Origin: Fodinicurvata sp. EGI_FJ10296
Lineage (GTDB): Bacteria > Pseudomonadota > Alphaproteobacteria > DSM-16000 > Inquilinaceae
Direction of reading: 5' to 3'
DNA length: 64,000 bases
NCBI RefSeq assembly: GCF_040712075.1
Contig: NZ_JBFCVL010000001.1
Coordinates: forward strand, 627,501-691,500
Under the pieces are notes generated by a model, which was not told the DNA's origin, searched no databases, and saw nothing but the letters and a program-made list of their open reading frames with translations. Every line of letters starts with the position of its first letter. Positions within the stretch are counted from its first letter, which is position 1. Made by a program: the position numbers and the translations under genes. This document shows positions 7,000-36,013 of the stretch, in pieces.

Positions 7000-8010
7000 T
7001 TGATTGCGAGAAACAATAAGGTTCTCGTCACCGGCGCCGATGGCTTCATCGGCTCGCACCTGGTGGAGACGTTGGTTCGCGACGGGCATGATGTCCGGGC
7101 ATTCGTGTTCTATAACTCGTTCAATTCCTGGGGCTGGCTGGATCGCCTTTCACCGGAGATCGCCAGTCAGGTCGAAGTGGTCAGCGGTGATATCCGCGAT
7201 CCCCATGGTGTGGCAGCGGCGATCGACGGATGTCGGATCGTTCTTCATCTGGCGGCGCTGATCGCCATTCCCTTCAGCTATCATTCACCGGATTCATACG
7301 TCGCGACGAATGTGACCGGAACGCTGAACGTGCTTCAGGCGGCGCGGCAACATGGCGTGGAACGGGTTGTCTGTACCTCGACATCCGAGGTCTACGGAAC
7401 GGCGCAGTTTGTGCCCATCACCGAGGAGCATCCGCTCAACGCTCAATCTCCCTATGCGGCGACCAAGATCGGGGCCGACCAGTTGGCGCTGTCGTTCCAT
7501 CGGTCATTCGACATGCCGATAGCCGTTCTGCGGCCTTTCAATACCTATGGCCCGAGACAGTCCGCCCGTGCCGTCATTCCGGCCATTATCGGACAGATCG
7601 CTGCCGGCGCCCGGCAGGTCAAGCTCGGGGCGCTGCATCCGACGCGCGATTTCACTCATGTCCGTGACACGGCGCGCGGCTTCGTCCAGGCTGCCGGATC
7701 AGACGCAGCAATCGGCCGGGTCACGAATATCGGGAGTGGGTTCGAGGTTTCCATCGGCGAAACCGCCGCCCTGATTGCCGAAGTCATGGGTGGCGACGTC
7801 GAGATTGTTGCCGATGATGCCCGAATGCGCCCGGCCGCCAGCGAAGTCGAGCGATTGTTTGCCGGAACGAAAGCTGCCGAGGCGCTTTTCGGTTGGTCTC
7901 CCGAGTACGGGGGACGCGAAGGGTTCAGACGCGGCCTGTCAGAGACGGCAGAGTGGTTTCAGAAGCCCGAGAATCTCGCGGCCTACAAGACGGATCGCTA
8001 CAACATATAG
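7000..8010 (+). CDS. legB: nucleotide-GlcNAc 4,6-dehydratase, first step to legionaminic acid
   Basis: This 336-residue extended-type SDR has the NAD-binding motif VTGADGFIGSHL at the N-terminus, then the FYNSFNSWGWLD stretch that is distinctive of LegB-type dehydratases, a CTSTSEVYG segment, and the catalytic YAATK (Tyr-x3-Lys). LegB removes water from NDP-GlcNAc to give the 4-keto-6-deoxy intermediate in the cytosol. No ATG precedes the Rossmann motif, so the start is taken as TTG 7000; the purine-rich GGGAAG upstream is rather distant. It is the first gene of a seven-gene plus-strand operon; legC begins one base after its stop. Confidence 0.88.
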   Translation: MIARNNKVLVTGADGFIGSHLVETLVRDGHDVRAFVFYNSFNSWGWLDRLSPEIASQVEVVSGDIRDPHGVAAAIDGCRIVLHLAALIAIPFSYHSPDSYVATNVTGTLNVLQAARQHGVERVVCTSTSEVYGTAQFVPITEEHPLNAQSPYAATKIGADQLALSFHRSFDMPIAVLRPFNTYGPRQSARAVIPAIIGQIAAGARQVKLGALHPTRDFTHVRDTARGFVQAAGSDAAIGRVTNIGSGFEVSIGETAALIAEVMGGDVEIVADDARMRPAASEVERLFAGTKAAEALFGWSPEYGGREGFRRGLSETAEWFQKPENLAAYKTDRYNI

Positions 8011-13870: not shown

Positions 13871-13907
13871 CCGGAGTCCGGCTACGTCAGGGGTTCGGCA
13901 AACCCTG
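13867..13907. terminator. paired hairpins between convergent legF and lolA
   Basis: The first hairpin (13867-13885) has an eight-base perfect stem, GTAGCCGG and CCGGCTAC, around a three-base loop and includes the legF stop codon. The second (13888-13907) pairs CAGGGGTT with AAACCCTG with one mismatch. There is no clear U-tract, so this is a likely bidirectional transcription stop rather than a classical intrinsic terminator. Confidence 0.45.
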
Positions 13908-13912
13908 GCGGT

Positions 13913-14533
13913 TCATCGGAACCGTTCCGGTGTCTGGAACAGCGAACTGCTCAGGGAGATATCGGTTTCGAGGTCTTCCAGTGTGATCTCGGTCGTTACG
14001 CCCTGGGCATCGTGGACCAGCCAGCCCTTGAGTTCGATCGGGTCGCGGTCGAATACCAGCGACAGCTCGCCGGCTGACGGCTCTTCGGTCTGGACGACAT
14101 CGATCCGGATGACGTCGAATTCGGTGCTGACGTCGCGCACGGTGACATCGCCCGACAGGCTGATCTGCTCGCGGGCGATGAAACCGGCCAGCGAGGATGA
14201 CAGGAACTGGTCGCTGCGCTGCCCCAGTTCCAGGTCGTAATAGGTAATGAACGTCCCGTTGGCGATGATCAGGTCGGGCGCGTCTTCGTATTCGATGCGC
14301 ATGCGTCCGGGACGGTCCAGATAGAACTCACCCTCGGCATAGCCGCCGCGGTCGGTCTGCTGGATAAACGTCGCCCGCAGCGACCGTATCCCCTGCAGAT
14401 AGGATTCAACCTCCGAAACGATCGCGTCGGGATTCGACCAGCCATCGGCCGATGCGCCGGTGGCAGTGAGGCCGGGCGCCAGCGCGAACGCGGCCGCCGT
14501 CCCGGCAAGTGTGAGAAAACGGCGTGTCATCAT
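13913..14533 (-). CDS. lolA: outer-membrane lipoprotein carrier protein LolA
   Basis: This roughly 206-residue protein starts at ATG 14533, where AAGGTG sits six bases upstream, and opens with a signal peptide (RRFLTLAGTAAAFALAPG) likely cleaved before the mature protein. The remainder matches LolA: IRSLRATFIQQ, GEFYLDRPGRMRIEYEDAP, a VTYYDLELGQ-like strand and SLVFDRDPIELKGWLVHDAQG. LolA carries lipoproteins across the periplasm from LolCDE to the outer membrane. It is 108 bp downstream of ftsK on the same strand, an arrangement common in alphaproteobacteria. Confidence 0.9.
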   Translation of the reverse strand: MMTRRFLTLAGTAAAFALAPGLTATGASADGWSNPDAIVSEVESYLQGIRSLRATFIQQTDRGGYAEGEFYLDRPGRMRIEYEDAPDLIIANGTFITYYDLELGQRSDQFLSSSLAGFIAREQISLSGDVTVRDVSTEFDVIRIDVVQTEEPSAGELSLVFDRDPIELKGWLVHDAQGVTTEITLEDLETDISLSSSLFQTPERFR

Positions 14534-14641
14534 ACGGTGCACCTTGGCGGTCGATGGTGGCGAAACTTGGTCGTCGGCGCGGCGTTCCGAAGCCCGCAGT
14601 CGAATTTCGCGGCCCCTTTGGGATTATTCACCGGGGTCGAG

Positions 14642-17305
14642 CTATTCATTGGGGTCGCGCACCAGAACCTCGCGCTTGCCGACATGGTTGGCGCTGCTGA
14701 CGACGCCATTGCGCTCCATCTCTTCGATGATGGTCGCCGCGCGGTTATAGCCAATCTGCAGATGGCGCTGGATAAAGCTGGTCGACGCCTTGCGCTCGCG
14801 GGCGACCAGATCGACCGCCTTGTCGTAGAGTTCGTTGCCCGAACCCGACCCCGAACCGGCCCCATCGCCACCGCCACCGCCACCGCCGATCCCGCCGCCG
14901 TCGTCGTCGGCTTCCTCCAGCACGGTGTCGTTATAAGCCGGCTCTCCCTGCCGTTTCAGATGCGCAACGACCTGCTCGACCTCGTAGTCGGACACGAAGG
15001 GCCCATGGACACGGGTAATGCGCCCGCCACCGGCCATATAGAGCATGTCGCCCTGACCGAGCAGCTGTTCGGCGCCGCCTTCGCCCAGAATCGTGCGGCT
15101 GTCGATCTTCGACGTGACCTGAAAACTGATCCGGGTCGGGAAATTCGCCTTGATCGTGCCGGTGATGACATCCACCGACGGCCGCTGGGTCGCCATGATG
15201 ATGTGGATTCCCGCCGCCCGGGCCATCTGGGCAAGGCGCTGGATCGCCCCTTCGATCTCCTTGCCGGCGACCAGCATCAGGTCGGCCATCTCATCGACGA
15301 CGACGACGATATAGGGCAGTTCCGTCATGTCCATGGGCTGGTCTTCAAACACCGGCTTGCCGGTATCGGGATCGAATCCGGTCTGCACCCGACGCATCAG
15401 CGTTTCGCCGCGCTCGCGGGCGTCGCGCAGCTTCTGATTATAGCCCTCGACATTGCGCACGCCCATCCGCGACATGCCGCGATAGCGGTCCTCCATTTCG
15501 CGGACCGTCCATTTCAGCGCCACGACCGCCTTTTTCGGGTCGGTCACCACCGGCGACAGCAGATGGGGAATGTCGTCATAAACCGACAGTTCCAGCATTT
15601 TCGGGTCGATCATGATGAAGCGGACCCGCTCCGGCGGCATCCGGTACAGCAGCGACAGGATCATGGTGTTGATCGCCACCGACTTGCCCGAGCCGGTGGT
15701 GCCGGCAACCAGCAGATGCGGCATGCGCGCCAGATCGGCGATCACCGGATCGCCGCCGATATCGCGCCCGAACATCAGCGCCAGCTTGGCAGAGGTCTGT
15801 TCCGCCGCCCGGGACTCCAGCAATTCGCGCAGATAGACGGTCTCGCGGCCCGGATTGGGCAACTCGATGCCCATGGCGTTCTTGCCCGGCACGACGGCCA
15901 CGCGCACCGACACGGCGCCCATCGACCGGGCGATATCGTCGCTCAGGCCGATAACGCGGCTCGATTTGGTGCCGGGGGCCGGCTCCAGCTCGAACAGGGT
16001 GACCACCGGACCGGGATTGACCTTTACGATCTGGCCCTTGACGCCGAAATCCGACAGCACGCTCTCCAGCGACGCGGCGGTTTCCGACAGCGCCTCCTTG
16101 GTCAGGACTTCGGCGCGCTCCTCGGTCGACGGCAGCGACAGCAGCGCATAGGGCGGCAATTCGTATGTCGTGTCGCCGCCCAGGCTGAGGATGTCCTGCC
16201 CGATACTGGCGCTGGCGCCGCCACTGCCCGCGGCCACAGGCTTCGGCGCCGCGCCGATCGCGGCCCCGAGCGCATCCTCGGTTGCCGCTGTTGCGTCCGC
16301 CGACTCCTTGGTCCGGGGGCGCGGCGCGGGGGTGTCGGTGCGGTCGGCCGTGGCGGGCGCCTCCTCTGCGGTGGCGGCCTCGTCGCCCGATCGCGGTTTG
16401 GCGGCCTTTGGCGTCTTGCGGACGGCGGGCGTTTCATCTTCTGTGCCGGTGTGAGGGCCTTCCCGGCGACGCAGCGTGCGTTGCGCCGCCCGGCCAGCGG
16501 CGACAGTCAGTTTCGCCGTCCGTCCGGCGGCCTTGCCGACCGCGACACCGGCAACCTGACTGCCGCGCGCCGTCTGTCGGCCGAGCAGACCCCACTCGCC
16601 CCAGCTAAGGCCAAAGGCGAGCAGAATCGTGAGGACGCCGAGGACGGCGAGAACGGCTGCGGTCATCCCCCGTCCGGCTGTCACGCCCATATCGCCTGCC
16701 AGACTCATGACGCTGTCCAGGACGATGACCCCGACCGCACCGCCCGGCATGCCGGCCGCTGCCCAGTTGGTCAGTGCAAAGGGCGTGTTGGCCAGCGGCG
16801 TGACGGCGGCGGCGAACAGCGCCAGCGCGATCATGGCGGCAAGCAGGCGGACCCACGCCCGGCCCATGGTGCCGCGCCGGATCAGCCGCCATGCCCAGGC
16901 CGTCAGGATGACGCAGAACAGGAACGACACGACGCCGAAAAGCTGGACCAGCAGATCGGCCGGATAGGCACCCCAGGCGCCCAGCAGGTTGTGATACTCG
17001 CCCGTTCCGCCGGCGGTGTTCCACGATGGATCGATCGGGGTATAGGTCGCCAGCGCCAGCAGCAACAGCGCCGCCAGGGCGCCGAACAGCAGGCCGATGC
17101 CCTCGGTCGCGCGCCGGGACAGCAGCTCCGCCGTTTCGGGCGGCAGCAGCCCGCCCTTGGCCTCACGGTTGCGCCGATTGCGCCGCGCACCGCTGCCGTT
17201 ACCAGTAGCGTTGCCGCCGGATCCGGCACCGGTTTTCCGGTTCGCCCGTGCGCCGCCGCCGCGACGGCCGGACCGGGCCGCCGGTGCGCTCAAGGATGCC
17301 GCCAT
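14642..17305 (-). CDS. ftsK: DNA translocase FtsK
   Basis: This 887-residue protein has four to five membrane segments in the first 220 residues, a low-complexity Ala/Thr/Pro linker (about 260-370), and the motor domain with Walker A GTTGSGKS at about 535-542, a [11 protein letters not shown] Walker B, and [19 protein letters not shown]. The end carries the winged-helix gamma domain ([17 protein letters not shown]) that reads KOPS sequences. A Gly-rich [11 protein letters not shown] stretch joins motor and gamma domain. FtsK couples chromosome dimer resolution to division at the septum. Its ATG follows the stop of the DapC-like gene by three bases. Confidence 0.95.
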
Positions 17306-23338: not shown

Positions 23339-24433
23339 CTACGCCAGCCAGCGATCGAGGTTCGCCCTCACGAACGCGTCGTCGGTAAGGTCGGGGTAGT
23401 CGCGGCAGACGCGGGTCAGTTCCTCCGCCTGGCCCGGTCCCATGGTCTCGTTCGGATCGAGGCACCAGATGCCGTCCAGCAGCCCCTGGCGGCGCAGCAC
23501 CTCGTGCACGCCGGCGATGCAGCCCTTGAAGCCGTTGGCGGCGTCGAAGACGGCGGCGTTGGCGTCGGTGGTCCGGGCGTCCAGCGCCAGCCATTTGGCC
23601 ACGCTGTCATTGGGCTCGGCCTTTTTGACGGCGTCGAGCAGCGCGACCGCGCGTTCGGTCCACACCGCCCAATGGCCCAGCAGGCCGCCGCGGAACCGGA
23701 CCGTCACCGGTTCGCCCTCGCGCATGAAGGTGAACGGCGTCATCAGGTCGCCGACGATATGGTCGTCGTTGCCGGTATAAAGCGTAATCCGCTCCTCGGC
23801 CCGCGCATCGACCAGCGCCCGCACGACATCCAGCGTATAGTACCGGTTGAACGGTGCGACCTTGATGCCGATGACGTTGTCCAATTCGGCAAACCGCTTC
23901 CAGAAGTGATAGGTCAGCTTCTGGCCGCCGACCGCCGCCTGCAGGTAAAAGCCGATGATGGGCATGACCCCGGCGACCGTCCGGCAATGCTCGATCAGCG
24001 TGTCCTCGTCGGCATCGGCCAGATTGCGCAGGCTGAGCAGCACGGCGTGATAGCCCAGCTTGCGTGCGGTTTCGGCCTCGGCCACCGCCTGCTTGGTGCC
24101 GCCGACGGCACCGGCGACCATGAAGGCCGTGCCGCCCCCGGCGCTGGCGCGCTCGGCGGCTTCCTCGGCGGCCAGCGCGAGCACCGGTTCGAACAGACCG
24201 GCCTCGCGGATTTCGAACTGCGTGGTGTGCACACCGACGGCGATGCCGATGGCGCCGGCGTCGAGGTAATAGCGCGACAGCGCCCGCTGCCGCCGCTCGT
24301 CCAGGCGACGGTCGGCGGTCAGCGCCAGCGGATGGGCAGGGATCACCCCGCCATCCTTGAAGGCGGCCAGTGTGTCGGCGGGGATATCGGTGATGCGCAG
24401 CATGGCGGCAATCCGTTCGTTAGGCGAGTTCAT
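23339..24433 (-). CDS. DapA-family (dihydrodipicolinate synthase-like) aldolase/dehydratase
   Basis: This 364-residue TIM-barrel protein has the expected Schiff-base lysine in GIKVAPFNRYY and the partner tyrosine in IIGFYLQAAVGG. Family members split or form C-C bonds with pyruvate or dehydrate 2-keto-3-deoxy sugar acids. It is longer than typical DapA (about 290) because of a C-terminal extension. The start ATG 24433 is chosen because earlier codons run into tetR; ATG 24403 is an alternative. It is the last gene of the transporter/catabolic operon, fitting a terminal step that yields pyruvate (inference). Confidence 0.8.
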   Translation of the reverse strand: MNSPNERIAAMLRITDIPADTLAAFKDGGVIPAHPLALTADRRLDERRQRALSRYYLDAGAIGIAVGVHTTQFEIREAGLFEPVLALAAEEAAERASAGGGTAFMVAGAVGGTKQAVAEAETARKLGYHAVLLSLRNLADADEDTLIEHCRTVAGVMPIIGFYLQAAVGGQKLTYHFWKRFAELDNVIGIKVAPFNRYYTLDVVRALVDARAEERITLYTGNDDHIVGDLMTPFTFMREGEPVTVRFRGGLLGHWAVWTERAVALLDAVKKAEPNDSVAKWLALDARTTDANAAVFDAANGFKGCIAGVHEVLRRQGLLDGIWCLDPNETMGPGQAEELTRVCRDYPDLTDDAFVRANLDRWLA

Positions 24434-24464
24434 CGGGTGGGCGAGAGCAGCGGCACGGTCGGTC

Positions 24465-25157
24465 TCAGACCCGGAGATAGCCCAGAATGACGGCAATCAC
24501 GTGCTCGCGCCGGGCGGTGCCGCAGACGGCCGCCGGTTCGAGATCGAAGATCGCCGACATGGTGTGCCGGTTCGAGACGTGGAAATACGAGACGGCGGCG
24601 ATGGTGATATAAAGCTGTACGGGGTCGACATCGGTGCGAAACCGCCCCATGCGTGCGCCTTGTTCCAGAAGCGTACGGATGGTCGCGACCAGCGGGCTGT
24701 TCAGTTCCCGCGCCCGGCGCGAGTCGCGTACATGCACGCCCTGAAGCATATTTTCGTCATTGATGATGGCGACGAACTCGCGGTGGCCGGCGACATAGTC
24801 GAAAGAAAAGGCAACAAGTTCGCGCATCGCCTCGACCGGATCGCGGCTGGTCAGTTCCAGCTTCTGTTCGGCGGCCCTGATATCGGCATAGGTTTTTTCC
24901 AGCACGGCGGCGAACAGGCCGTCCTTGTTGTCGAAATAGGAATAGATCAGGCTCTTGTTCGAGCCCGCCCGGTCCGCGATCCCGTCGATCCGGGCGCCCT
25001 GGAAACCCTTGGCCGCAAATTCGATCACCGCCGCCGACAGGATGCGCCGCCGGGTGGCGGCGGCGTTGCGCGTAGCGGGACGCGACGCCGTTCGCGACCG
25101 CGAGCCTTCAGCGCCGTTCCCCTTGTGCCCGGCCCGCTCCTGCTCAGTAAGTGCCAT
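24465..25157 (-). CDS. TetR-family transcriptional regulator
   Basis: Starting at ATG 25157, 230 residues. The N-terminal HTH is clear: TRRRILSAAVIEFAAKGFQGARIDGIADRAGSNKSLIYSYFDNKDGLF. The C-terminal ligand domain is of the TetR C6-like kind. A basic, Arg/Ser-rich tail of about 25 residues precedes the HTH. The gene overlaps the upstream oxidoreductase by 14 bp and sits inside the operon it probably controls, with a candidate operator before tctC. Confidence 0.88.
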   Translation of the reverse strand: MALTEQERAGHKGNGAEGSRSRTASRPATRNAAATRRRILSAAVIEFAAKGFQGARIDGIADRAGSNKSLIYSYFDNKDGLFAAVLEKTYADIRAAEQKLELTSRDPVEAMRELVAFSFDYVAGHREFVAIINDENMLQGVHVRDSRRARELNSPLVATIRTLLEQGARMGRFRTDVDPVQLYITIAAVSYFHVSNRHTMSAIFDLEPAAVCGTARREHVIAVILGYLRV

Positions 25158-26193
25158 CACGCACCTCGAAATGCGTGGGCTTGGCCAGCGACCGGCCGCC
25201 GGCACCGATCCAAGCCGCCGTCCAGTCGATCAGCGTCGACAGCGCAACCGACGGATAGCCATAGAGCCGGTTCTGCAGCCCCGTGTTGACCAGCCATGCC
25301 GTGGACTGTTCTTCGCCCTCCAGCACCGGCGTACGGCCGAGCCGTTCGCCGAACGCATGCGCCAGTGCGCGTACGCTGACAAGTTCGGGTCCGGACAGAT
25401 TGATCAGGAATGGCGGGCTTTCGGCGCGGGCCAGCGTCCGCAGCGCGATGTCGTTGGCATCGCCCTGCCAGATGACGTTGCAATGCCCATTGCCCAGAGG
25501 AATTGACCGGCCGTCGCGCACGGCAGTGGCGACGTCATGCAGAACGCCGTAGCGCATGTCGATGGCATAGGAAAGCCGGATGATCGAGGTCCGCGTGCCG
25601 TGGCGCTGGGAGAAATGCTGGAACATGCGTTCCCGGCCGACGCAGGAATTGGCGTACTCGCCGGGCGGTTCCAGGGCGATCGGCTCCAGCGCGCCTTGCC
25701 CGGTCACGCTGACGAACGGATAGACGCAGGCGGTGGAGAATGCGGCAATCCTGGAATCCTTGAACGCCTGTGCCACGATGGCCGGCACATGCACGTTCAT
25801 GGCCCAGGTGAAGGCCGGATTGCCGCTGGCGCCGAATTTGTGCCCGGCCATGAAGACGGCATTGGCGGTTTTCTCCAGGCCATCGACCGCGGCCGCGTCG
25901 AGCAGGTCGCAGGCCTTGGTCTCGATGCCCCAGTTTTCGAGCTTGTCGCGCAGGCCGGATTCCGAGAAGCGCGCGACGCCGATGATGCGCTTGTCCGGCG
26001 CGGCCCGTTTGGCCATCCGCGCCAGCGTCGGCCCCATCTTGCCGCCGACGCCCAGAATGGTGATATCGCCATCCAGCCCGGCCAGCGTTTCCACCAGGGC
26101 GGCGCTTGGCGTGGACATCAGGTCTTCCAGGTGATCCTCGTCGCGGATCGCGGTCGGAAGGGTGTCGGTGGCGGTCATGACAGTCGGTTCCAT
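25144..26193 (-). CDS. NAD-dependent epimerase/dehydratase-family oxidoreductase
   Basis: This 349-residue extended SDR-like protein has the nucleotide-binding loop TILGVGGKMGPTLARMAKRA (GxGGxxG variant) and an STACVYPFVSVTG segment, but the usual YxxxK pair is represented by EYANSCVGRER, where Tyr is not followed by Lys at +4. That missing lysine makes it either an unusual catalyst or a binding protein. It lies between the enolase-like gene and tetR in the operon. Substrate unknown; a sugar lactone or uronate is plausible from context. Confidence 0.7.
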   Translation of the reverse strand: MEPTVMTATDTLPTAIRDEDHLEDLMSTPSAALVETLAGLDGDITILGVGGKMGPTLARMAKRAAPDKRIIGVARFSESGLRDKLENWGIETKACDLLDAAAVDGLEKTANAVFMAGHKFGASGNPAFTWAMNVHVPAIVAQAFKDSRIAAFSTACVYPFVSVTGQGALEPIALEPPGEYANSCVGRERMFQHFSQRHGTRTSIIRLSYAIDMRYGVLHDVATAVRDGRSIPLGNGHCNVIWQGDANDIALRTLARAESPPFLINLSGPELVSVRALAHAFGERLGRTPVLEGEEQSTAWLVNTGLQNRLYGYPSVALSTLIDWTAAWIGAGGRSLAKPTHFEVRDGTY

Positions 26194-26246
26194 TTTCGCT
26201 TCGGGTATCAGGGTTCACGTAAAAACTATCGGCGGGGGGATTTCAT

Positions 26247-27710
26247 TTATGGCTTTGCGTCCATTTCCAGCGAGGCGAACTGCCAGCTCGACGGGGCCTC
26301 GCGCGCCGACATATCGGGAAGCGGCGTGAAGCCCATCCCCGGCACCTGCAGGGAGCCGATGGCCAGATCGCCGCCATCGATCCTGAGCGCGACGCTGCCG
26401 CCGGTCCGCTCGTAAAGGTCGCCATGAGCCTGAAGGGCGGCTTCGGCCTCGGCCGTGGGCAGGTGGTCCAGGCCGTGGAAATAGTGATGGCCGTTGCGCT
26501 CGACATGGTCGATGCCCAGCATGGCGACCACGGCCAGATCGGCTTGCAGCGATACCACCGGCCGGCAGGTCAGATCTTCTGCCGACATGAAATAGCGGCC
26601 CTGTCCGCCGGTCGTTGTCTCGTTCAGCTTGCGGGCCAGCAGCGCGTTCAGCATCGATCGGGTCACGCCCTTGCAGTTCTTGTGGCTGACGCCGAAATAA
26701 CCGAGATCGACGGCCTCGCTGTAGGCGGTCGTCCAGCCGTCGGCCTCGTCGATCAACAGCGGCTTGCCGATGATCTCCAGCGCGCGCGGATCGAGCGGAC
26801 CGGACAGCGCCACCGACCGTTCCAGCGGTTGTTCGATGAACAGGATCGAGCGATAGAAATCGGCCAGGCTGCCGCGTTCGCGGACGGCCTCGATCAGTGC
26901 GGCAAAGCCGTCCAGGCTGCGATACTGCTCGTTGCCGTCCAGCGTCACCGTGGGCGTCACGCCCATGGATGCCGTCAGGCTGGCGATTTTTTCCAGCCGC
27001 TCCAGATCCTCGTCCAGATTGCCGCCGACCTTGACCTTGAGATACGAGATGCCGTCCTGGTCCAGATAGTCGCGCAGGGATTCCGGCAGGCCGTCGCCGA
27101 TGCGTTTGCCGGCCGGCAGGTCGCCGTCATCGATCGGATCGACCAGGCCGACGGTATGGCGCAGATGCAGCGACCGGGCCGGGGCGGCGGGCAGGATTTC
27201 GGCCACCGACCGGCCCGCCAGCGCCGGCATCACCGCACCCGGATCGATGCCGAGATCGCCGTCCCGTACCATGTCGAAGACCGGCTTGCCCAGATGACGG
27301 CCCAGCGCGTCGATCATGGCCCGCTCGACCATCGAGGTGCCGAATGATGCGCCCAGCCGGTTGAAACCGGCGGCGACGCTGGCACGGTCCACCTCGGCGT
27401 CGATCGCGCGCCACACCTCGAAAAACGGACCGGCGGGCTGGCCCCTGGCGACATCGATCGCTCGTTCGACTACCTGGATCAGGTCGGCGACATTGTCGGC
27501 CGGCGTTTTTTCCGGGCGCTTGTCGAACCATTTATAGGCCAGCATGTCGGCGGCATAGCCGCGGACGCGGGCGCCGTCGATCTCGACCTCAAGCTCCAGC
27601 GTGGCCTCGGCGGCAGCGCGCATGGTGACGACGCCAAAGCGAAACGGCATGCGGGCGCGGGAACTCGCGATCCCGAGGCGCCCGTCGATGATCTTCAGGG
27701 CTGTACTCAT
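26247..27710 (-). CDS. enolase-superfamily (mandelate racemase-like) protein
   Basis: The 487-residue product shows the superfamily's barrel landmarks: YLKVKVGG (KxK catalytic lysine), VTLDGNEQ (first metal ligand), LFIEQPLE (second metal ligand), LLIDEADG (third acidic position) and SHKNCKGV on the opposite face. Members abstract a proton next to a carboxylate, typically dehydrating sugar acids. It is longer than most sugar-acid dehydratases (about 400) because of an N-terminal extension. Its ATG overlaps the stop of the upstream isomerase-like gene, so translation is coupled. Confidence 0.78.
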   Translation of the reverse strand: MSTALKIIDGRLGIASSRARMPFRFGVVTMRAAAEATLELEVEIDGARVRGYAADMLAYKWFDKRPEKTPADNVADLIQVVERAIDVARGQPAGPFFEVWRAIDAEVDRASVAAGFNRLGASFGTSMVERAMIDALGRHLGKPVFDMVRDGDLGIDPGAVMPALAGRSVAEILPAAPARSLHLRHTVGLVDPIDDGDLPAGKRIGDGLPESLRDYLDQDGISYLKVKVGGNLDEDLERLEKIASLTASMGVTPTVTLDGNEQYRSLDGFAALIEAVRERGSLADFYRSILFIEQPLERSVALSGPLDPRALEIIGKPLLIDEADGWTTAYSEAVDLGYFGVSHKNCKGVTRSMLNALLARKLNETTTGGQGRYFMSAEDLTCRPVVSLQADLAVVAMLGIDHVERNGHHYFHGLDHLPTAEAEAALQAHGDLYERTGGSVALRIDGGDLAIGSLQVPGMGFTPLPDMSAREAPSSWQFASLEMDAKP

Positions 27711-28555
27711 TGGCTTTCGTACTCCTCCAGCGCTTCGCTCAGGCCGCGCAGATAGCCGCGGGCCACGGCCGCCGCCGCCACGCCGCTCGGCTCATATCGG
27801 AATGGCTCGATGCCGATGACGCCGTCGTACTGACGCGCGATCAACATGCGCATGATCGCCAGGAACCGATCGTCCCCCTGACCCGGTGCCCGGCGGTCGC
27901 GGTCGTTGAAATGGATGTGCGCGATATGGCCGCTGGGCAGCCAGCGGTCGATGACCTCGTGATGCGGTGCGGTTTCGCTGTCCGCCGCTGCCGAGGTATC
28001 GAGCATTGTCTTCAGGCCCGGCAGGCCGATTTCGTCGACGATGGCGGCGGCTTCGCCGACCGTGTTCACGAACGCCGTCAGCTTTGGCGACAGCGGCTCG
28101 ATGCAATAGACGACGCCCATCGGCCCGGCGGCCTCCCCGACAGCGCGGAAGTGGTCGAGCGCCGTGGCCCGGGCGGCTTCCGGCGAGCTTGCGTCCTCCA
28201 GCCGGCGCTGGTCGGGCGAGCCGTGGACGATGACCGTGCCGCCCAGCTCGGCGCACAGATCGACCATCGCCAGCATATGGTTGCGCGTCCGCCGCAGCGT
28301 TTCACCGTCGTCGCTGGTCAGCGACAGGTTGGCCGGCGCGCTGAGCACCCAGTGCAGGCCGGTGATCGTCAGGCCGTTATCGGCGGCGATCGATCGCACA
28401 TCAGCCCGTTCGACCGCCGTCAGCCGGGCCGGGTCCTCCGCCAGAGTGAACGGCGCCACCTCCAGCCCGTCATAGCCCAGAGCAGCGGCCATTTCGCACT
28501 GCTCCTCGAAAGACAGGTCCCGCAGGACTTCGTTGCACAGTGATATGCGCATCAT
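27707..28555 (-). CDS. sugar phosphate isomerase/epimerase-like TIM-barrel protein
   Basis: Starting from ATG 28555, 282 residues resembling the xylose-isomerase-like TIM barrel (AP endonuclease 2 superfamily): ISLCNEVLRDLSFEEQCEMAAALGYDGLEVAP, GLHWVL, YCIEPLSP, MLDTSAAADSE and IGIEPFRYEP supply the metal ligands (Glu, Asp, His, Glu). Such proteins epimerise or isomerise keto sugars. It follows tctB by five bases and overlaps the enolase-like gene. Confidence 0.82.
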   Translation of the reverse strand: MMRISLCNEVLRDLSFEEQCEMAAALGYDGLEVAPFTLAEDPARLTAVERADVRSIAADNGLTITGLHWVLSAPANLSLTSDDGETLRRTRNHMLAMVDLCAELGGTVIVHGSPDQRRLEDASSPEAARATALDHFRAVGEAAGPMGVVYCIEPLSPKLTAFVNTVGEAAAIVDEIGLPGLKTMLDTSAAADSETAPHHEVIDRWLPSGHIAHIHFNDRDRRAPGQGDDRFLAIMRMLIARQYDGVIGIEPFRYEPSGVAAAAVARGYLRGLSEALEEYESQ

Positions 28556-28560
28556 GTCGG

Positions 28561-29082
28561 TTACCCCGGTAGTCGGACGCGGAAAAGTTCCTCGAACACG
28601 TATTGGACGCCAAAGGCGATCACCAGTGCCAGCACCAGCGCGAAAACAGCGGTGATTGCCAGTGAGCGCGGTCGGGTGCGGTTGAGCCACTCGGCGCCCA
28701 CGGTGAAAGCGAAGACGAACAATGTCGTTGCGATCACGAAATGGACCTGCCCGAACAGAAATCCGGCATAGCCGATTGTCGTGGCCAGCGCCAGAAAGAC
28801 CCGTTTCCAGGAATCGGTCAGCCGGGGGCCTGGCACGATTTCCAGACCCTCATCCGTCGCGCGGCGCGGGCCTTTCAGGCCCCGCAGCAGCAGCATCAGG
28901 CCGAGAACGGTCAGGATGGCGCCCAGAATACCCGGCACCAGACCCGGCACCGTATAGGGGTTGATGTTCTGGTCGGCCAGTCGCGGCATGCGCAACGATT
29001 CCACCAGCGCAAACAGGCCGATGACCAGTGTCGCCAGACCACTGTAGAAATCCGTGCGGTCGATCCGCGTGCGGCTGTTCAT
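28561..29082 (-). CDS. tctB: tripartite tricarboxylate transporter small membrane subunit
   Basis: ATG 29082 gives 173 residues with four membrane helices (GLATLVIGLFALVESL, ILGAILTVLGLMLLL, VIATTLFVFAFTVG, ITAVFALVLALVIAFG), the size and pattern of TctB. It overlaps the preceding oxidoreductase gene by four bases. TctB works with TctA in the inner membrane. A longer frame reading upstream overlaps that gene and is not supported. Confidence 0.85.
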   Translation of the reverse strand: MNSRTRIDRTDFYSGLATLVIGLFALVESLRMPRLADQNINPYTVPGLVPGILGAILTVLGLMLLLRGLKGPRRATDEGLEIVPGPRLTDSWKRVFLALATTIGYAGFLFGQVHFVIATTLFVFAFTVGAEWLNRTRPRSLAITAVFALVLALVIAFGVQYVFEELFRVRLPG

Positions 29083-30140
29083 GCGGGTCTCCTGATCTCG
29101 ATCATGGGGGCGGGTTGCCGGGTCAGGGCGGTTTCGATGGCCGACATCGTTTCCAGCATCGACACCGCGCCCTCGCTCAGGTTGCACAGCACCGGCCAGC
29201 CGGTCTCTGGCGTGCCATTGTCCAGCGCAGCAAGAAAGACGGTGAAGGTTTCGGCGAGCAGGGCCACAGGCGTAACGGCCGGCGGCTGTTCCCAGACCAG
29301 GTCGCCCGGCACCGGATGCCATCCGTCCTCGGTCGGCTCGTAGCGGACCCGGGCGAGGAACAGCCGCCCGGCGTTGAAATCGAGGTCGATAGTGCCGGCG
29401 TCGCCGATCAGGCGCAGGCGCTTGGTCGTAACGGCGCCGGGGACGAACGGGTCGTCGTGTGTGCCCGCCCGCAGAACGCCCAGGCGCAGATGGCCGGCAA
29501 TCTCACCGGGAAAGCCGAGGTCGATGTCGACCTCGTCGGCCACCGGGCCACCCAGATGGTGGTGTGCGCGGGCGTCGGCGGCCACGGGCGGTCCGCCGAT
29601 CAGATTGCTCATCAGGTCCAGGAAATGGACGCCGTCATTCTCGATCAGCGATGAGTCCGCACGCATGCGCTTCCAGCCGGAGAAATCGCCCTCGACCTTT
29701 ACGACCCTGCCGATTGCGCCCTGAGCCAGCAGCGCCGCCGCCCGGCGCACGAGAGGGTGCGCCCGCAGCACGAACTGCACCTGGACCGGACAGCCGGCCG
29801 CGCGGGCCCGGTCGGCCAGATCGCGGGCGTGGTCGAGGCGCCGGACTGCGGGCTTTTCCACGATCGCCGGTTTGCCGGCATCGATCGCCATGCGCACGGC
29901 GGCATAATGGTCGTCCGGCGGCGTGACCACATCGACGATGTCCGCGTCGGCGAGAAACGCCTCCGGCTCGGCGGCGATGTCGCTTTCCGGCACGAGGGCT
30001 TGCGCCCGCCGGCGTGCCGCCGGTGACGGGTCGGCGATCGTCAGCCGGGCATCGGGCAATGCGCGGCGCCACGCCTCGGCATGAACCGCGCCGAAAGCAC
30101 CGAAACCGCACAGCAGGATCGTGGATGGGCGATTACCCAC
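29079..30140 (-). CDS. Gfo/Idh/MocA-family oxidoreductase of the transporter operon
   Basis: This 353-residue protein starts ILLCGFGAFGAVHAEAW (Rossmann GxGxxG) and has AIVEKPAVR, the EKP motif, near residue 95, then DGVHFLDLMSNLI. The family oxidises or reduces sugars with NAD(P). GTG 30140 has GGGAG eight bases upstream; the gene overlaps tctA by eight bases and tctB by four. Its placement between transporter genes argues that it acts early on the imported substrate. Confidence 0.82.
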   Translation of the reverse strand: MGNRPSTILLCGFGAFGAVHAEAWRRALPDARLTIADPSPAARRRAQALVPESDIAAEPEAFLADADIVDVVTPPDDHYAAVRMAIDAGKPAIVEKPAVRRLDHARDLADRARAAGCPVQVQFVLRAHPLVRRAAALLAQGAIGRVVKVEGDFSGWKRMRADSSLIENDGVHFLDLMSNLIGGPPVAADARAHHHLGGPVADEVDIDLGFPGEIAGHLRLGVLRAGTHDDPFVPGAVTTKRLRLIGDAGTIDLDFNAGRLFLARVRYEPTEDGWHPVPGDLVWEQPPAVTPVALLAETFTVFLAALDNGTPETGWPVLCNLSEGAVSMLETMSAIETALTRQPAPMIEIRRPA

Positions 30141-31701
30141 GGGGCGACTCCCTTGACGCAGTTCTCGGCGACGCAGTTCCCGGATCCGGTGCGGCGTCCG
30201 ATGGGCGCGGCCCCCGCAGACGGGCGAACCAGCGTTGCACCGGCGGCAGGCTGACGATGATCAGGGTCAGGATCGTGATCCACAGTACGGCGCTGATCGG
30301 CCGCATGAAAAACGGCGCGAGGTCACCGTCGGTGAGCACGAGACTTCGGCGCAGATTGGCGTCCAAAATCGGTCCCAGCACGACGCCCAGGATCATCGGC
30401 GCCAGCGGGAAGCGCATTTCGCGCATCACGAAGCCCAGGACGCCGAAGGCCAGCATCACCCAGACGTCGAACAGCCGCCCGGCGATGGCGTAGGCGCCGA
30501 CGGCGCAGAGAACGAAGATGGAGCCCATCAGCCATTCGCGCCGCACTTTCAGGATGAACAGCATCGGGCGGATCAGCGCCAGACCGAGAACCAGCATGCA
30601 GCAGGTGGCTACGAAAACCATCGCCACGACCTGATAGAAGAATTCCGGTTGCTGTATCATGATCAGCGGCCCCGGCCTGATGCCGTGGATCACCATGGCG
30701 GCGAGCAGCACGGCCGCCGGTGCCGAACCCGGTATCGCCAGCGTCAGTACCGGGATCAACGCGCCGGGAACCGCGGCATTGTTGCCGGTTTCAGCAGCGA
30801 CCAGCCCTTCGGTCGAGCCCTTGCCATAGCTGTCCGGATCGCGTGAGACGCGCCGTGCGGCGGCATAGGAGACCCAGGCGCCCATATCCTCGCCAACGCC
30901 GGGCACGATGCCCATGAAGGTGCCGATGATGCCGGAACGAACCCAGGTTCGGACATAGCGCACCGCACCCAGGGCGGACCGCATGACGCCGGACACCTTG
31001 CTCTGGATCATGACATGTGATTCCTGGCGCATGACCGAGATGATTTCCGAGAATCCGAAGGCCCCGACCAGCACCGGCAGCAGCCCGAATCCGCCGGACA
31101 GATCGGACCAGCCATAGACGAACCGCTGATAGGCGTGGATGCTCTCCTGCCCGACCATGGCGATCAGCAGGCCGAAAAATCCCGATATCCAGCCCCGGAT
31201 GGGATCGTCGAAGGCGGTCAGCTGCCCCGCGATCACGACCCCGAACACGGCCAGCCAGAAAAACTCGAACGAGCCGAATTCCAGGGCGAATTCCGCCAGC
31301 CAGGGCGCCACGACGGCCAGCGCGACCATGCCGATCATCGACCCCATGAACGAACCGGTGGTGGCGACGGCCATTGCCTTTCCGGCATGACCGCTGCGCG
31401 CCAGCGGATAACCGTCGAGCGACGTGGCGGCATTGGCCGGCGTGCCGGGAATGTTCAGCAGAATCGCGGTGCGGCTACCGCCATAGATGGCGCCGATATA
31501 CATGCAGACCAGAACCAGGATGGCGTTGTCCGGCTCCATGGTGAAGGTCAGCGTCGTCAGCAGAGCGACGCCCAGGGTTGCCGTCAGGCCCGGCGTCATG
31601 CCGACAATGATTCCCAGCAGCGTCGCCCAGAGGGCATCGACCACCTGCCAGGAAAACAGGATGTTCTGAATGGCGGCTATTAACTGCGGCAGCCCGTCCA
31701 T
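30133..31701 (-). CDS. tctA: tripartite tricarboxylate transporter large membrane subunit
   Basis: This 522-residue polytopic protein has the TctA signatures GMTPGLTATLGVALL near residue 34, IYGGSRTAILLNIPGTPANAATSLDGYP and its pseudo-repeat GIVPGVGEDMGAWVSY, with about eleven membrane helices. TctA is the channel subunit of secondary carboxylate uptake with a periplasmic binding protein. ATG 31701 has GGAGAC upstream. It follows tctC by 122 bp. Confidence 0.92.
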   Translation of the reverse strand: MDGLPQLIAAIQNILFSWQVVDALWATLLGIIVGMTPGLTATLGVALLTTLTFTMEPDNAILVLVCMYIGAIYGGSRTAILLNIPGTPANAATSLDGYPLARSGHAGKAMAVATTGSFMGSMIGMVALAVVAPWLAEFALEFGSFEFFWLAVFGVVIAGQLTAFDDPIRGWISGFFGLLIAMVGQESIHAYQRFVYGWSDLSGGFGLLPVLVGAFGFSEIISVMRQESHVMIQSKVSGVMRSALGAVRYVRTWVRSGIIGTFMGIVPGVGEDMGAWVSYAAARRVSRDPDSYGKGSTEGLVAAETGNNAAVPGALIPVLTLAIPGSAPAAVLLAAMVIHGIRPGPLIMIQQPEFFYQVVAMVFVATCCMLVLGLALIRPMLFILKVRREWLMGSIFVLCAVGAYAIAGRLFDVWVMLAFGVLGFVMREMRFPLAPMILGVVLGPILDANLRRSLVLTDGDLAPFFMRPISAVLWITILTLIIVSLPPVQRWFARLRGPRPSDAAPDPGTASPRTASRESPRG

Positions 31702-31823
31702 GATGTCTCCGAATGGGTTCTCGGTCGGAAGCCGTAAGGCGGGTGATATAACAGGCCGCGCCCGCTCCCTTGTCCGGAGCAGACGCGGCCAGCGCCGTCA
31801 TGACTGGAAAATGTCCGTCAGGC

Positions 31824-32849
31824 TCAGTTGCATTCGATACCGAAATCGGCCGGATCGTTCGCTGCCTGACCGCCCTCGAAAAGCTGGCAGGCGTTGATCC
31901 GCAGCATCGGCATCACGGCTTCCTGCGCCGCTTCGCCATAGCTGGGGTCGAAGACCGCGCCGCTATCCGCTGCATACTCGGCCAGCGCTTCGGAATTGGC
32001 GATTTCTTCTTCCCATACACGGTCGAGAGTGTTCAGCACCTCTTCCGGGGCGTCCGCGGGCACGAAGATGCCGAAATAGTTGTTCGCGGCTTCGATGTCC
32101 GGCAGCCAATCGGTGATCGACGGAATCTCGCCATAACCTTCGATCTCCAGCGGACGGGCGGCCACGACGGCCAGCGGCTTCAGCCGGTTGCCGCGGATCA
32201 TTTCGGCCTGCTCCGAGGCAAGCTGCGAGGTGACGTCGACTTCGCCGGACACGGCAGCGATGACAGCGGGGTTGCCGCCGTCATAGGTGACGTGCCGGTA
32301 TTCGATATCGGCCGCGCTGCCGATCGCCGATATTGCGATGTGCCCGGCCGACGAGACGCCTGCCGTCGACACCGTGATTTCGCCCGGGTTCTCTTCCCAG
32401 GCGGCCATCAGGTCGCCGAAATCCTCGTACTCGGAGTCGGGATGGACCGAAATCACCGACACGTTTGCGATGTGAAGGTACAGGCGCCATTCATCGAGGG
32501 TGACGTCAAGCATGTCGAGAACCGGATAGGCGCCCAGATCGGCGGCGGCGCCCGCGGCGATCATCATGCCGTCATGGTCGGCTTCCCAGACCGACCGGCT
32601 TCCGACCGACCCCGATGCGCCGGGCTGATTGTTGACGACGAAGGACTGGCCGATCGCCTGTTCCAGTTCGTTCGCCAGCACCCGGGTGACGGTATCCGTC
32701 GACCCGCCGGCAGCCCATGGCACGATGATCGTGACAGGCTCGTCCGGCTGCCATTCGTACTCCTGCGCCTGAACCTGGCCCGCAATCAGTGCGGGTCCGG
32801 CGACTCCTGCCGACAGTGCGGCAGCAAGAATGTACAAGCGGTTGGTCAT
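31824..32849 (-). CDS. tctC: tripartite tricarboxylate transporter substrate-binding protein
   Basis: This 341-residue periplasmic protein has a signal peptide (YILAAALSAGVAGPALIAGQVQA), then the TctC/Bug family pattern: VTIIVPWAAGGSTDTVTRVLA, FVVNNQPGASGSVGSRSVWEADHDG, and YDGGNPAVIAAVSGEVDV. Bug proteins bind carboxylates. The ATG is preceded by GGGAGGAC. As first gene of the operon it lies immediately downstream of a repeat-rich operator candidate. Confidence 0.93.
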   Translation of the reverse strand: MTNRLYILAAALSAGVAGPALIAGQVQAQEYEWQPDEPVTIIVPWAAGGSTDTVTRVLANELEQAIGQSFVVNNQPGASGSVGSRSVWEADHDGMMIAAGAAADLGAYPVLDMLDVTLDEWRLYLHIANVSVISVHPDSEYEDFGDLMAAWEENPGEITVSTAGVSSAGHIAISAIGSAADIEYRHVTYDGGNPAVIAAVSGEVDVTSQLASEQAEMIRGNRLKPLAVVAARPLEIEGYGEIPSITDWLPDIEAANNYFGIFVPADAPEEVLNTLDRVWEEEIANSEALAEYAADSGAVFDPSYGEAAQEAVMPMLRINACQLFEGGQAANDPADFGIECN

Positions 32850-32881: not shown

Positions 32882-32908
32882 ATAACTAAATAACTAGTTA
32901 GATAACTA
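32882..32908 (-). promoter_or_regulatory. candidate TetR operator before tctC
   Basis: Three copies of ATAACTA (starting 32882, 32890 and 32902) surround a perfect ten-base palindrome TAACTAGTTA at 32891-32900. On the minus strand a TTGACA-like -35 lies at 32932-32937, although the -10 is poor. The AT-rich site is 33 bp before the tctC ATG, suitably placed for repression by the TetR encoded in the operon. Confidence 0.55.
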
Positions 32909-32944
32909 CCTTGTGCGAAGGAGGGACGGTTTGTCAATTCACGC

Positions 32945-33149: not shown

Positions 33150-34289
33150 TTAATAGGCTTGGCTGTTGGCGTCGATTTCGTCCTGGCTGACCCGGCCGAA
33201 CAGGACCTTGTAGACCCAGGCGGTATAGGCCAGCACGATCGGCAGCAGCACCACGGTCGCCACCAGCATGATGAACAGCGTCAGATGGCTCGACGTGCTG
33301 TCATAAACGGTGAGCGAACTGCGCGGATCGGTGCTCGACGGCAGGATGAACGGGAACATCGACAGCCCGACGGTCGAGATCATGCCCAGGATGCTGATCT
33401 TCGAGCCGATGAAGCCGATCCAGTCGATACCGGCGCGCAGCCCCGCCAGCGCGACCAGCGCACCGCCGAAGCCCAGGATCGGGGCGATGGTCATCCACGG
33501 ATAGGTGCCATAGTTGGTCAACCAGCCGCCAGCCACGGTTTCCACCGTCTTGCGCAGCGGGTTGCTGGGGCCGTCGCCGTCGATGGTCGAGGTGATGACA
33601 TAGCCGTCGATGCCGAAAGCGATCCACAGCCCGGCAAGGGCGAACAGGGCGATGACCCCCAGTGCCGCCATTGACCCATAGGACCTTGCGCGATGGTAAA
33701 GGGCGCCCGTGGTCTTCATCGACAACCAGGTGGCGCCGTGCATGGACAGCATCAGCACCGAAAGAACGCCGCAGAGCAGGGCAAAGGGGTTCAGCAGGCC
33801 GAAGAAGCTCCCGGTATAAAAGCTGCGCAGATCGTCGTCGAGGTTGAACGGCACGCCCTGCAGCACATTGCCGACCGCCACGCCGAAGATCAGGGCCGGC
33901 ACGAAACCGCCGATGAAATGCGCGACATCCCAGGTCTTGCGCCAGCGTTCATTGTCGACCTTCTGGCGGAACTTGAACGCCACCGGCCGCAGGATCAGCG
34001 CGGTCAGAACGACGAACATCGCCATATAGAAGCCGGAAAAGCTGACCGCGTAGAGCGGCGGGAAGGCGGCGAATATCGCGCCGCCGCCCAGGATGAACCA
34101 GACCTGGTTGCCTTCCCAGACCGGGCCGAGCGTGTTGATGATCATGCGCTTTTCGTCGTTGGTCCGGGCGATCACCGGGGACAGGATCGCCGAGCCCATG
34201 TCGAAGCCGTCCGTGGCGGCAAAGCCGATCAGCAGGACGCCGAGCAGCAACCACCAGATCAGGCGCAGGGTTTCGTAATCGAGCAGCAT
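33150..34289 (-). CDS. cydB: cytochrome bd ubiquinol oxidase subunit II
   Basis: From ATG 34289 the product is 379 residues, the same length as the E. coli subunit, and starts [15 protein letters not shown]. It shows [37 protein letters not shown] and [17 protein letters not shown], and about eight to nine helices. The start is chosen for GGGAG nine bases upstream; ATG 34295 is too close to it. It follows cydA by 16 bp and supports subunit I in the inner membrane. Confidence 0.95.
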
Positions 34290-34305
34290 TGTCATGATCT
34301 CCCGG

Positions 34306-35922
34306 TCACTCGGCGCCGGCCGGTTGGTTGGAATTGGGGCCATAGATCGGCGTATTGCCGCGTCTGGCGCTGTCGGGCTGCATCCGGTCCGGCAGGAAGG
34401 GGGCTTCGCCGTAGGGGCCGATCCTGATGTATTTCGCCAGCAGATAGACATCGATCACGGCGAGCACGCTGTAGATCAGGCAGAAGCCGACGATGGTCGT
34501 CACCAGTTGCGCGACGCTGAGCGACGAGGCGCCGAGAAACGTCGGCAGCATGCCTTCGATCACCCAGGGCTGCCGGCCGTATTCGGCGACCAGCCAGCCG
34601 AGCTGGGCCGCAATCCAGGGTGTCGGCAACGAGGCCACCGCGACATAGAGGAACCAGCGCGTCTGGTGCCGCCGGGTCGAGCACAGATAGAAAGCGACCG
34701 CGAACAAGGCGATGAAGAAAAAGCCCAGCCCGACCATGACCCGGAACGACCAGAACAGCACCGGCACGTTCGGCACCGTGGACCATGCGGCTTCTTCCAG
34801 CTGCTCCGGCGTCGCGTCGAGCGGATTCTCAACGAATGGCCGCAGCAGATGGGCGTATCCCATATCGAGCTGGTGTTCGTCGAAGACGGCCTGAGCTTCG
34901 GCGTCGTCGGGCGTTTCGCGCAGGGTCAGCAACGCCTCATAGGCCAGCAGGCCGTTGTCGATCCGCCCGCGGGCGTCATCGACCAGATCAAGAATGCCGG
35001 GCACTTCCTGACTGATCGACCGGGTGGCGATCAGACCGAGCGCCCACGGCACCTGTATCTCGTAGTGTGTCTCGCGGTTCTCCAGATCGGGCAGGCCGAC
35101 GATCGTGAACGGTGCCGGCGCCGGCTCGGTGTGCCACATGCCTTCCATGGCGGCGAGCTTCATGCGCTGGTTGTCGGTGATCGTGTAGCCGCTTTCGTCG
35201 CCCAGGACGACGACCGACAGCGCCGAGGCCAGACCGAACGAGGCGGCGACCGTCATCGAGCGCTTGGCGAATCCGATATGACGGCCCCAAAGCAGGTAAA
35301 GCGCGCTGATCGCCAGCACGAAAACGGCGCCGGTCACGTATCCGGCGCTGACTGTGTGCACGAATTTCGACTGGGCGACCGGGTTGAAGATGACCGCCCC
35401 GAAATCGACGATCTCCATGCGCATGGTGTCGAGGTTGAATTCCGCGCCGACCGGGTTCTGCATCCAGGCATTGGCGATCAGGATCCACAGCGCCGACAGG
35501 TTCGAGCCCAGCGCCACCATCCACGTCACGCCCAGATGGGCCAGCTTGGACATCCGGTCCCAGCCAAAGAAGAACAGCCCGATGAATGTGGCTTCCAGGA
35601 AGAACGCCATCAGCCCTTCGATCGCCAGCGGGGCGCCGAAGATATCGCCGACATAGTGACTGAAATAGGCCCAGTTGGTGCCGAACTGGAATTCCATGGT
35701 GATGCCGGTCGCCACGCCCATGGCGAAGTTGATGCCGAACAGGATTCCCCAGAACTTGGTCATGTCGCGCCAGACCTGGCGGCCGGTCATGACATAGACG
35801 CTTTCCATGATCGCGATGATCAGCGACAGGCCGAGCGTCAACGGCACGAACAGAAAGTGATACATCGCCGTTAGGGCGAATTGCAGGCGCGACAGCTCAA
35901 CAACTGTCGGATCAATCAGCAT
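34306..35922 (-). CDS. cydA: cytochrome bd ubiquinol oxidase subunit I
   Basis: From ATG 35922, 538 residues. Landmarks are [24 protein letters not shown] with the haem b595 ligand His, the haem b558 ligands His and Met in the middle helices, a long Q-loop ([21 protein letters not shown], then [12 protein letters not shown]) and [13 protein letters not shown]. The long Q-loop is the E. coli-like type rather than the short-loop CIO type. The oxidase reduces oxygen with high affinity without pumping protons. A perfect FNR-type box lies about 92 bp upstream, indicating low-oxygen induction. Confidence 0.96.
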
Positions 35923-36013
35923 GACGCCAACTCCCATACGGTAGGGGGGAATGCCAGTCGGCAAAAGGCTCCCGAATATCCGCATGGGGTAAGCCGATGT
36001 GAATTAGCGATCA

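Follow-up and report, generated by a model that had tools for sequence, protein, structure and literature searches.

Three routes have been described for 2-keto-3-deoxy acids, in which the acid is dehydrated, cleaved by an aldolase reaction, or oxidized at C4 and then hydrolyzed, with enzymes of the DapA and FAH types taking part (Routes I-III; excerpts of PMC6336799, PMC11199699 and PMC13398020). Route III, which serves L-rhamnose, L-fucose and pentose, is laid out in the available parts of PMC6336799 and PMC11199699 as a dehydratase, a short-chain dehydrogenase/reductase (SDR) acting as 4-dehydrogenase, and an FAH hydrolase. A tripartite tricarboxylate transporter (TTT), TctABC, is on record for galactarate and glucarate in Halomonas (excerpt of PMC5812351). 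Here we analyze a nine-gene locus at positions 23339-32849 of a 64,000-nucleotide stretch of DNA from Fodinicurvata sp. EGI_FJ10296 (hereafter the window). We propose, with a probability of roughly 0.45, that it is a TetR-controlled operon for the uptake, by TctCAB, of a sugar-derived carboxylic acid and its non-phosphorylative breakdown to pyruvate, by way of dehydration by an enolase-superfamily enzyme, C4 oxidation by an SDR and cleavage by a DapA-family enzyme. The proposal rests on gene content, gene order, a repeat upstream of the operon, catalytic-type residues and the co-occurrence of the SDR and DapA genes; it is from these sequence features that we infer every reaction and the substrate.

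In the proposed scheme, TctC would capture the carboxylate and TctAB would import it, after which a xylose-isomerase-like barrel and a Gfo/Idh/MocA oxidoreductase may adjust the keto sugar acid by epimerization and by reduction or oxidation. The enolase-type enzyme would then form a 2-keto-3-deoxy acid by removing water, the SDR would oxidize C4, and DapA, through a Schiff base on Lys191, would cut the C3-C4 bond to release pyruvate and a shorter fragment. Some other genomes would use an FAH-family hydrolase for the last step, and other modules would feed the SDR-DapA core.

The nine open reading frames, read from the sequence and searched against Pfam, all lie on the minus strand. First comes the transporter: TctC, the periplasmic solute-binding protein (31824-32849, 341 aa; PF03401, 80.4 bits); TctA, the large membrane subunit (30133-31701, 522 aa; PF01970, 460.9 bits); and TctB, the small membrane subunit (28561-29082, 173 aa; PF07331, 53.1 bits), with the Gfo/Idh/MocA gene (29079-30140, 353 aa; PF01408, 59.9 bits, and PF22725, 45 bits) inserted between tctA and tctB. 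All three subunits score above their Pfam cut-offs, which identifies a TTT, and the closest solved relatives of TctC are TctC/Bug-type and terephthalate-binding proteins. The remaining genes encode: a xylose-isomerase-like TIM barrel of the keto-sugar/keto-acid 3-epimerase type (27707-28555, 282 aa; PF01261, AP_endonuc_2, 133 bits); an outlying enolase-superfamily enzyme (26247-27710, 487 aa), whose MR_MLE_C match of 25.6 bits is below the cut-off of 29.4; an SDR/epimerase-like protein with YxxxC replacing YxxxK (25144-26193, with a possible start at 26118; 349 aa), which matches no Pfam family; a TetR regulator (24465-25157, 230 aa; PF00440, TetR_N, 50.6 bits, and PF17938, TetR_C_29, 127.1 bits); and an enzyme of the DapA/N-acetylneuraminate-lyase superfamily (23339-24433, 364 aa; PF00701, DHDPS, 34.2 bits). 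Neighboring frames overlap by 8 bases at tctA/gfo, 4 at gfo/tctB, 4 at barrel/enolase and 14 at SDR/tetR; the likelier start codons are at 29082 for TctB, 28555 for the barrel, 25157 for TetR and 24433 for DapA. The genes thus lie where the original prediction had placed a nine-gene transporter and catabolic operon with a TetR.

The gene order recurs in relatives. A search with the enolase-type enzyme gave 480 relatives, and the 79 distinct loci retained are the best of these; genes in fetched loci were called with a codon-usage-based caller written for this analysis. All nine genes, in identical order and orientation, are found in 10 of the 79 loci (L001-L005, L008-L011 and L019; in L004 the best SDR piece spans only 191 residues), in records named Nitratireductor, Aquamicrobium, Mesorhizobium, Oceaniglobus, Rhizobiaceae, Roseitalea and Tropicimonas. 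The nine genes also occur on a plasmid of Nitratireductor sp. OM-1. Four further loci (L012, L014, L016 and L017) keep the order of eight genes and lack Gfo; L065 and L072 likewise have eight genes without Gfo, in a different order; and L021 lacks Gfo and TetR. This synteny led us to reject chance clustering of the nine genes.

The DapA-family protein retains Lys191 and Tyr163 in 25/25 alignment rows. The two residues align with the lysine and tyrosine of N-acetylneuraminate lyase and dihydrodipicolinate synthase, and we take their counterparts in solved relatives to be catalytic. Together with the PF00701 score, which exceeds the cut-off of 22.1, they place the protein in the DapA/NAL class I aldolase superfamily, whereas its score to KdgD (TIGR03249, 5-dehydro-4-deoxyglucarate dehydratase) is 25.2 bits against a cut-off of 373.95. 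N-acetylneuraminate lyase tops its profile matches at 39.3 bits, followed by dihydrodipicolinate synthase at 36.9; a role as sialic-acid lyase was set aside, there being no other sialic-acid gene among the nine.

The SDR is predicted (model pLDDT 90.3) to have an extended-SDR Rossmann fold with a glycine-rich loop, in which G48, G51 and G54 are invariant; its top structural match is TerB (6nd7; Z 30.4, root-mean-square deviation (rmsd) 2.6, 291 residues aligned). The epimerase-like protein had been said to lack the YxxxK pair, and this holds for half of it: the lysine is lost, its position being occupied by Cys184, whereas Tyr180 is invariant, in 29/29 rows (two of them identical). A PRISE-type SDR was considered and dropped, since iridoid synthase matched the N-terminal part only.

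The enolase-type enzyme has a confident model (pLDDT 94.7), whose top VIA-align match is the muconate lactonizing enzyme 3dg6 (Z 32.3, rmsd 2.9, 354 residues aligned). K225, K227, D258, E293, D321 and K344 are present in 49/49 rows, so that the enolase fold, the KxK motif and the three acidic metal ligands of the superfamily are all found; K344 would correspond to the far-side lysine that is a trait of the muconate-lactonizing subgroup, at a position where the profile alignment is unsure. Because these catalytic-type residues are kept, the protein should be an active enzyme. Families that are missing from the structural-match lists of this enzyme and of the SDR carry no evidential weight. The barrel conserves E153, D186, H213 and E250 in 25/25 rows, the E, D, H, E set that we take to be the metal ligands of keto-sugar 3-epimerases. 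Its NCBIfam scores of 68.7 bits to IolO and 64.1 bits to psicose epimerase are both far below the cut-off of 300 and do not make it an equivalog of either. The Gfo protein has an invariant E95-K96-P97 (12/12). Pfam families, fold and residues thus bear out the isomerase-like barrel, the enolase-superfamily enzyme and the Gfo/Idh oxidoreductase that had been read from the sequence.

Relatives of the enolase-type enzyme also occur in other surroundings. The loci L022-L079, many of them from Planctomycetota, Gemmatimonadota and Latescibacterota, mostly carry it without SDR or DapA; 11 loci have a member of a MetE-like family (Pfam Meth_synt_2 checked for L022 only) and 12 loci have two enolase genes. 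On pRL10 of Rhizobium johnstonii 3841 the relative stands with genes annotated as 5-deoxy-glucuronate isomerase, glycosyl hydrolase, barrel and hydroxyacid dehydrogenase, and on pSymB of Sinorhizobium meliloti with TetR, Gfo, DUF993-type and barrel genes, both being sugar-type clusters. Two haloarchaeal plasmid relatives have neighbors that include heparinase, GNAT and Gfo genes (L083, 12001-13434) and sulfatase and heparinase genes (L122, 12759-14201).

The strongest linkage is that between the SDR and DapA. A profile search (E <=1e-30) of 289 genomes of the class places the SDR in 23/289 and DapA in 23/289, and the 23 genomes, from 14 families, are identical; the Fisher P of 1.6e-34 is only a guide, because the genomes are related and not independent. 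The enolase-type enzyme occurs in 15 of these 23 genomes versus 5 of the 266 others, and DUF993, on which a literature search returned no paper, in 18 of the 23 versus 7 of the 266. The SDR is also present in 22 plasmid records, among them Streptomyces, Rhodococcus, Nonomuraea, Paenibacillus, Mesobacillus, Aquisphaera and haloarchaea, and in 10 of 13 stretches examined from these (L081, L116-L127) DapA is next to it or one gene off. The two genes are adjacent in Mesobacillus, Paenibacillus, Rhodococcus, Streptomyces, Aquisphaera, Prescottella and Glaciihabitans (thus including Actinomycetota, Bacillota and Planctomycetota) and one gene apart in Sulfitobacter and Microvirga. Their Gram-positive neighbors include annotated carbohydrate ABC importers and LacI, ROK and AraC regulators. 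In Mesobacillus, the one case compared, DapA is 55% identical, the barrel match is at chance level and Gfo reaches 36.6 bits over its N-terminal part; the idea of an identical barrel and Gfo enzyme in all clusters was dropped, as those of Mesobacillus belong to different subfamilies.

A clue to the last step comes from three loci in which an FAH-family protein stands beside the SDR, with no DapA in the locus: L050 (a metagenome-assembled genome), L063 (Aquabacter) and L074 (Azospirillum). A search at E 1e-20 finds no DapA of this group in the genomes of the latter two, and finds one in the other 8 of 10 chosen genomes. The FAH protein of L050 scores 422.9 bits, against a cut-off of 500, to the NCBIfam family of 2,4-didehydro-3-deoxy-L-rhamnonate hydrolase, and all three proteins have His84/Glu87 within an NYxxHxxE motif. 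According to excerpts of PMC6336799, the C-C hydrolase C785_RS20550 (2,4-dioxo-pentanonate hydrolase) has a His83/Glu86 dyad, and FAH-family dehydratases of 2-keto-3-deoxypentonate carry a different specific glutamate; the dyad matters because of this difference. Since the stand-in is of the type that hydrolyzes 2,4-diketo-3-deoxy sugar acids, C-C cleavage to pyruvate is likely, and because FAH replaces DapA in those loci, DapA should perform an equivalent cleavage. Gene calls and labels make the SDR the sole oxidoreductase of the gene group in L063 and L074, and it is therefore the natural candidate for the C4 oxidation. Of the oxidation, dehydration and retro-aldol steps to pyruvate that had been put forward, the cleavage to pyruvate is thus the part that gains support.

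These observations suggest a more specific model, which we regard as tentative and rather unlikely as it stands: the YxxxC SDR and DapA would form a two-enzyme unit that oxidizes C4 of a 2-keto-3-deoxy sugar acid and then performs a hydrolytic retro-Claisen cleavage via a Schiff base, a task that falls elsewhere to the unrelated FAH hydrolases; the unit would be an end-point shared by several bacterial phyla and fed by interchangeable modules. Because the SDR and DapA share the same genomes and FAH stands in elsewhere, the chemistry of this last step is directly testable. A somewhat unlikely but serious alternative is that a 2-keto-3-deoxy acid is cleaved by DapA in an ordinary retro-aldol reaction, or dehydrated by it, and that the SDR works at an earlier step, either as a dehydrogenase of C1, like uronate dehydrogenase, or as an epimerase. 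The SDR fold, being an extended-SDR fold, agrees with this. Known pathways include DapA-type enzymes that dehydrate 2-keto-3-deoxy acids (excerpts of PMC6336799 and PMC13398020), and FAH-type enzymes are known for that dehydration too (PMC6336799, in part). However, a plain aldolase or dehydratase leaves unexplained both the identical set of SDR and DapA genomes (23/289) and the C-C hydrolase dyad of the stand-in FAH, which has no dehydratase site.

Several modules surround the SDR and DapA. In one, TctCAB is combined with the enolase-type enzyme and the barrel, to which Gfo is sometimes added; in another, GNAT accompanies an ABC importer of the NMT1/SsuA type; a third unites DUF993 with a second Gfo and a second barrel. 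PhyH and MetE-like proteins occur as well, as do sugar ABC importers. The Gfo-DUF993-barrel module is also present in the Fodinicurvata genome, on another contig (G000:C13, about 13900-17080; L104, 8401-11581), where it lies near a GntR regulator and trehalose-type genes. The operon thus represents one form of a modular system, and the SDR and DapA are the component of that system that varies least. The nine-gene operon of the original prediction stands as a set of transporter, catabolic and TetR genes, and not as a self-standing pathway, for modules vary around the SDR-DapA pair.

The same modularity bears on the substrate. The type of transporter is no guide to whether the substrate is a sugar acid or a sulfonate, because TTTs exist for galactarate and glucarate and, as an excerpt of PMC5812351 also records, for sulfolactate. 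We consider it quite unlikely, though worth weighing, that the operon acts on a sulfonated or nitrogen-containing acid rather than on a plain sugar acid, in a system whose core is fed by SsuA/TauA-like ABC importers accompanied by GNAT, an amidase or a RidA-like protein. Three solute-binding proteins score 53.5, 73.7 and 63.7 bits to SsuA_fam, all far below the cut-off of 163.5. Among 52 loci with SDR or DapA there are 20 with an NMT1-type solute-binding protein, 19 with GNAT and 5 with amidase, in a set that is biased, as most loci were fetched via the enolase-type enzyme, the window is included and L101/L102 repeat L014/L015. Against this reading speak the carbohydrate ABC importers of the Gram-positive clusters and the window operon itself, which has no SsuA-type importer, GNAT, amidase or RidA-like gene; a GNAT search of the Fodinicurvata genome gave nothing, which has no weight by itself. 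The sugar acid claimed as substrate therefore draws support from the sugar-type partner genes of Gram-positive relatives, while sulfonate-type importers in sister clusters leave alternatives.

It is very unlikely that the enolase-type enzyme works not as a dehydratase but as a cycloisomerase or epimerase, on a lactone, an alicyclic acid or an acid derived from an aromatic compound: the KxK motif, the further invariant lysine and the lead of muconate-lactonizing and dipeptide-epimerase enzymes in VIA-align agree with it, but many VIA-align rows are nearly tied in Z, Foldseek mixes these groups with mandelate racemase and D-glucarate dehydratase, which come close behind at similar E-values, a shared fold proves no function, none of the nine genes resembles an aromatic ring-cleavage gene in Pfam, and the Gram-positive partner genes are of sugar type.

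Besides this VIA-align ranking, several observations weigh against a sugar-acid pathway that runs through dehydration, SDR oxidation and DapA cleavage. Classical SDRs rely on the lysine of YxxxK, and because it is replaced here the SDR is possibly no dehydrogenase. If the SDR does yield a 2,4-diketo acid, DapA would need to cleave it hydrolytically, and we know of no such cleavage in the DapA family. The pair itself comes apart in L006, where DapA is present and the SDR is absent from the locus, and in three haloarchaeal stretches with SDR and without DapA; one genome (G043) has both FAH and DapA (L085, L086). As for the stand-in, L050 has a second SDR-like gene adjoining the enolase gene, L074 has an aldo/keto-reductase-like gene about 2 kb beyond the gene group, and the FAH protein of Halalkaliarchaeum has no NYxxHxxE motif. 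Finally, there are SsuA/TauA-like importers in sister clusters, and the clusters of Sulfitobacter, Microvirga, L084 and L103 contain, among the labeled groups, only an importer, TetR, SDR, GNAT and DapA, with no enolase, barrel or Gfo of these groups; a profile search of the L084 and L103 genomes gave no enolase match either.

The control region lies upstream of tctC. Pattern matching finds a TetR-operator-like inverted repeat, TATCTAAC-N7-TTAGTTA, at 32883-32904 (minus strand), with a -35-like element, TTGACA, upstream of it at 32932-32937 (minus strand). Repeats of the type TTATCTAAC-N5-GGTTAGTTA lie upstream of tctC in 12 loci, the window and 11 relatives, in all of which a TTGAC box is 26-32 nucleotides upstream of the repeat; the repeats in these 12 loci were picked by eye, and 11 of the sites scored had also served to build the scoring matrix. 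The window has one match at 0 mismatches, where 0.00 are expected. The repeat is not universal: near tctC, the repeats of L012, L014 and L016-L018 are weaker or of another kind, and several other loci have none. Most simply, it is the putative operator of the operon's own TetR. A wider regulatory role was considered for this TetR; the sole match within 3 mismatches in the Fodinicurvata genome is the operon site, and this is weak evidence, as that threshold is near background, the reversed control pattern having also matched twice.

A 15-bp hairpin fills part of the gap between tctC and tctA (31754-31790, minus strand; gap folding z -3.45, found in a terminator-like scan). Stems of at least 8 bp are present in 19/19 tctC-tctA gaps folded, with differing sequences, the relatives being folded without a shuffle control. 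The hairpin is probably an attenuator or an mRNA stabilizer.

Upstream of the operon, open reading frames at 33150-35985 read as putative cytochrome bd genes; downstream, on the opposite strand, is a SHOCT-domain gene. Positions 1-8000 of the window have a G+C content of about 0.55, versus 0.61-0.68 elsewhere in it, and their long open reading frames include one weak Gfo/Idh match, one DegT aminotransferase and three without a Pfam family. This region is possibly a surface-polysaccharide island.

If the two-enzyme model is right, cleavage of a 2,4-diketo acid by a DapA-family protein would add to a textbook enzyme family a reaction that it is not known to catalyze. The unit would then be fed by TTT modules with the enolase-type enzyme, barrel and Gfo, by DUF993 with Gfo and a barrel, by SsuA-type ABC importers and by carbohydrate ABC importers. 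Whichever model holds, the system offers a testable handle on groups without assigned function: the YxxxC SDR, this DapA group, DUF993 and the enolase group, which spans Alphaproteobacteria to Planctomycetota and haloarchaea. A literature search, partly of abstracts and excerpts, recognized no publication that describes this gene set, in line with the earlier remark that no named pathway has exactly these genes; PMC3333776, in the part available, concerns mandelate-racemase genes other than these.

How, then, does the operon compare with described systems? Sister loci L050, L063 and L074 carry the FAH type of Route III, and the proposed chemistry, in which the acid is dehydrated, oxidized at C4 and cleaved at a C-C bond to give pyruvate, would follow the logic of Route III as well. 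The window differs in that it has DapA and no FAH-family hydrolase among its nine genes, an SDR of extended fold with YxxxC, an enolase-type enzyme under the Pfam cut-off and a TTT importer. The Thermotoga-type inositol route uses the 5-keto-L-gluconate epimerase IolO, which the barrel matches best among NCBIfam families, and the operon has a Gfo enzyme too; the comparison covers the barrel and Gfo, and the IolO score of 68.7 bits is far under the cut-off. The oxidative uronate route consists of uronate dehydrogenase, an enolase-superfamily cycloisomerase and KdgD of the DapA family. It thus shares with the window the combination of an epimerase-fold SDR, an enolase-superfamily enzyme and a DapA-family enzyme, but the window DapA reaches only 25.2 bits to KdgD, its SDR is without the lysine of YxxxK, and a barrel and Gfo are added. 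The catabolic system is real and widely conserved, although unnamed in the literature searched, and it is a variant of the non-phosphorylative sugar-acid type rather than a new category.

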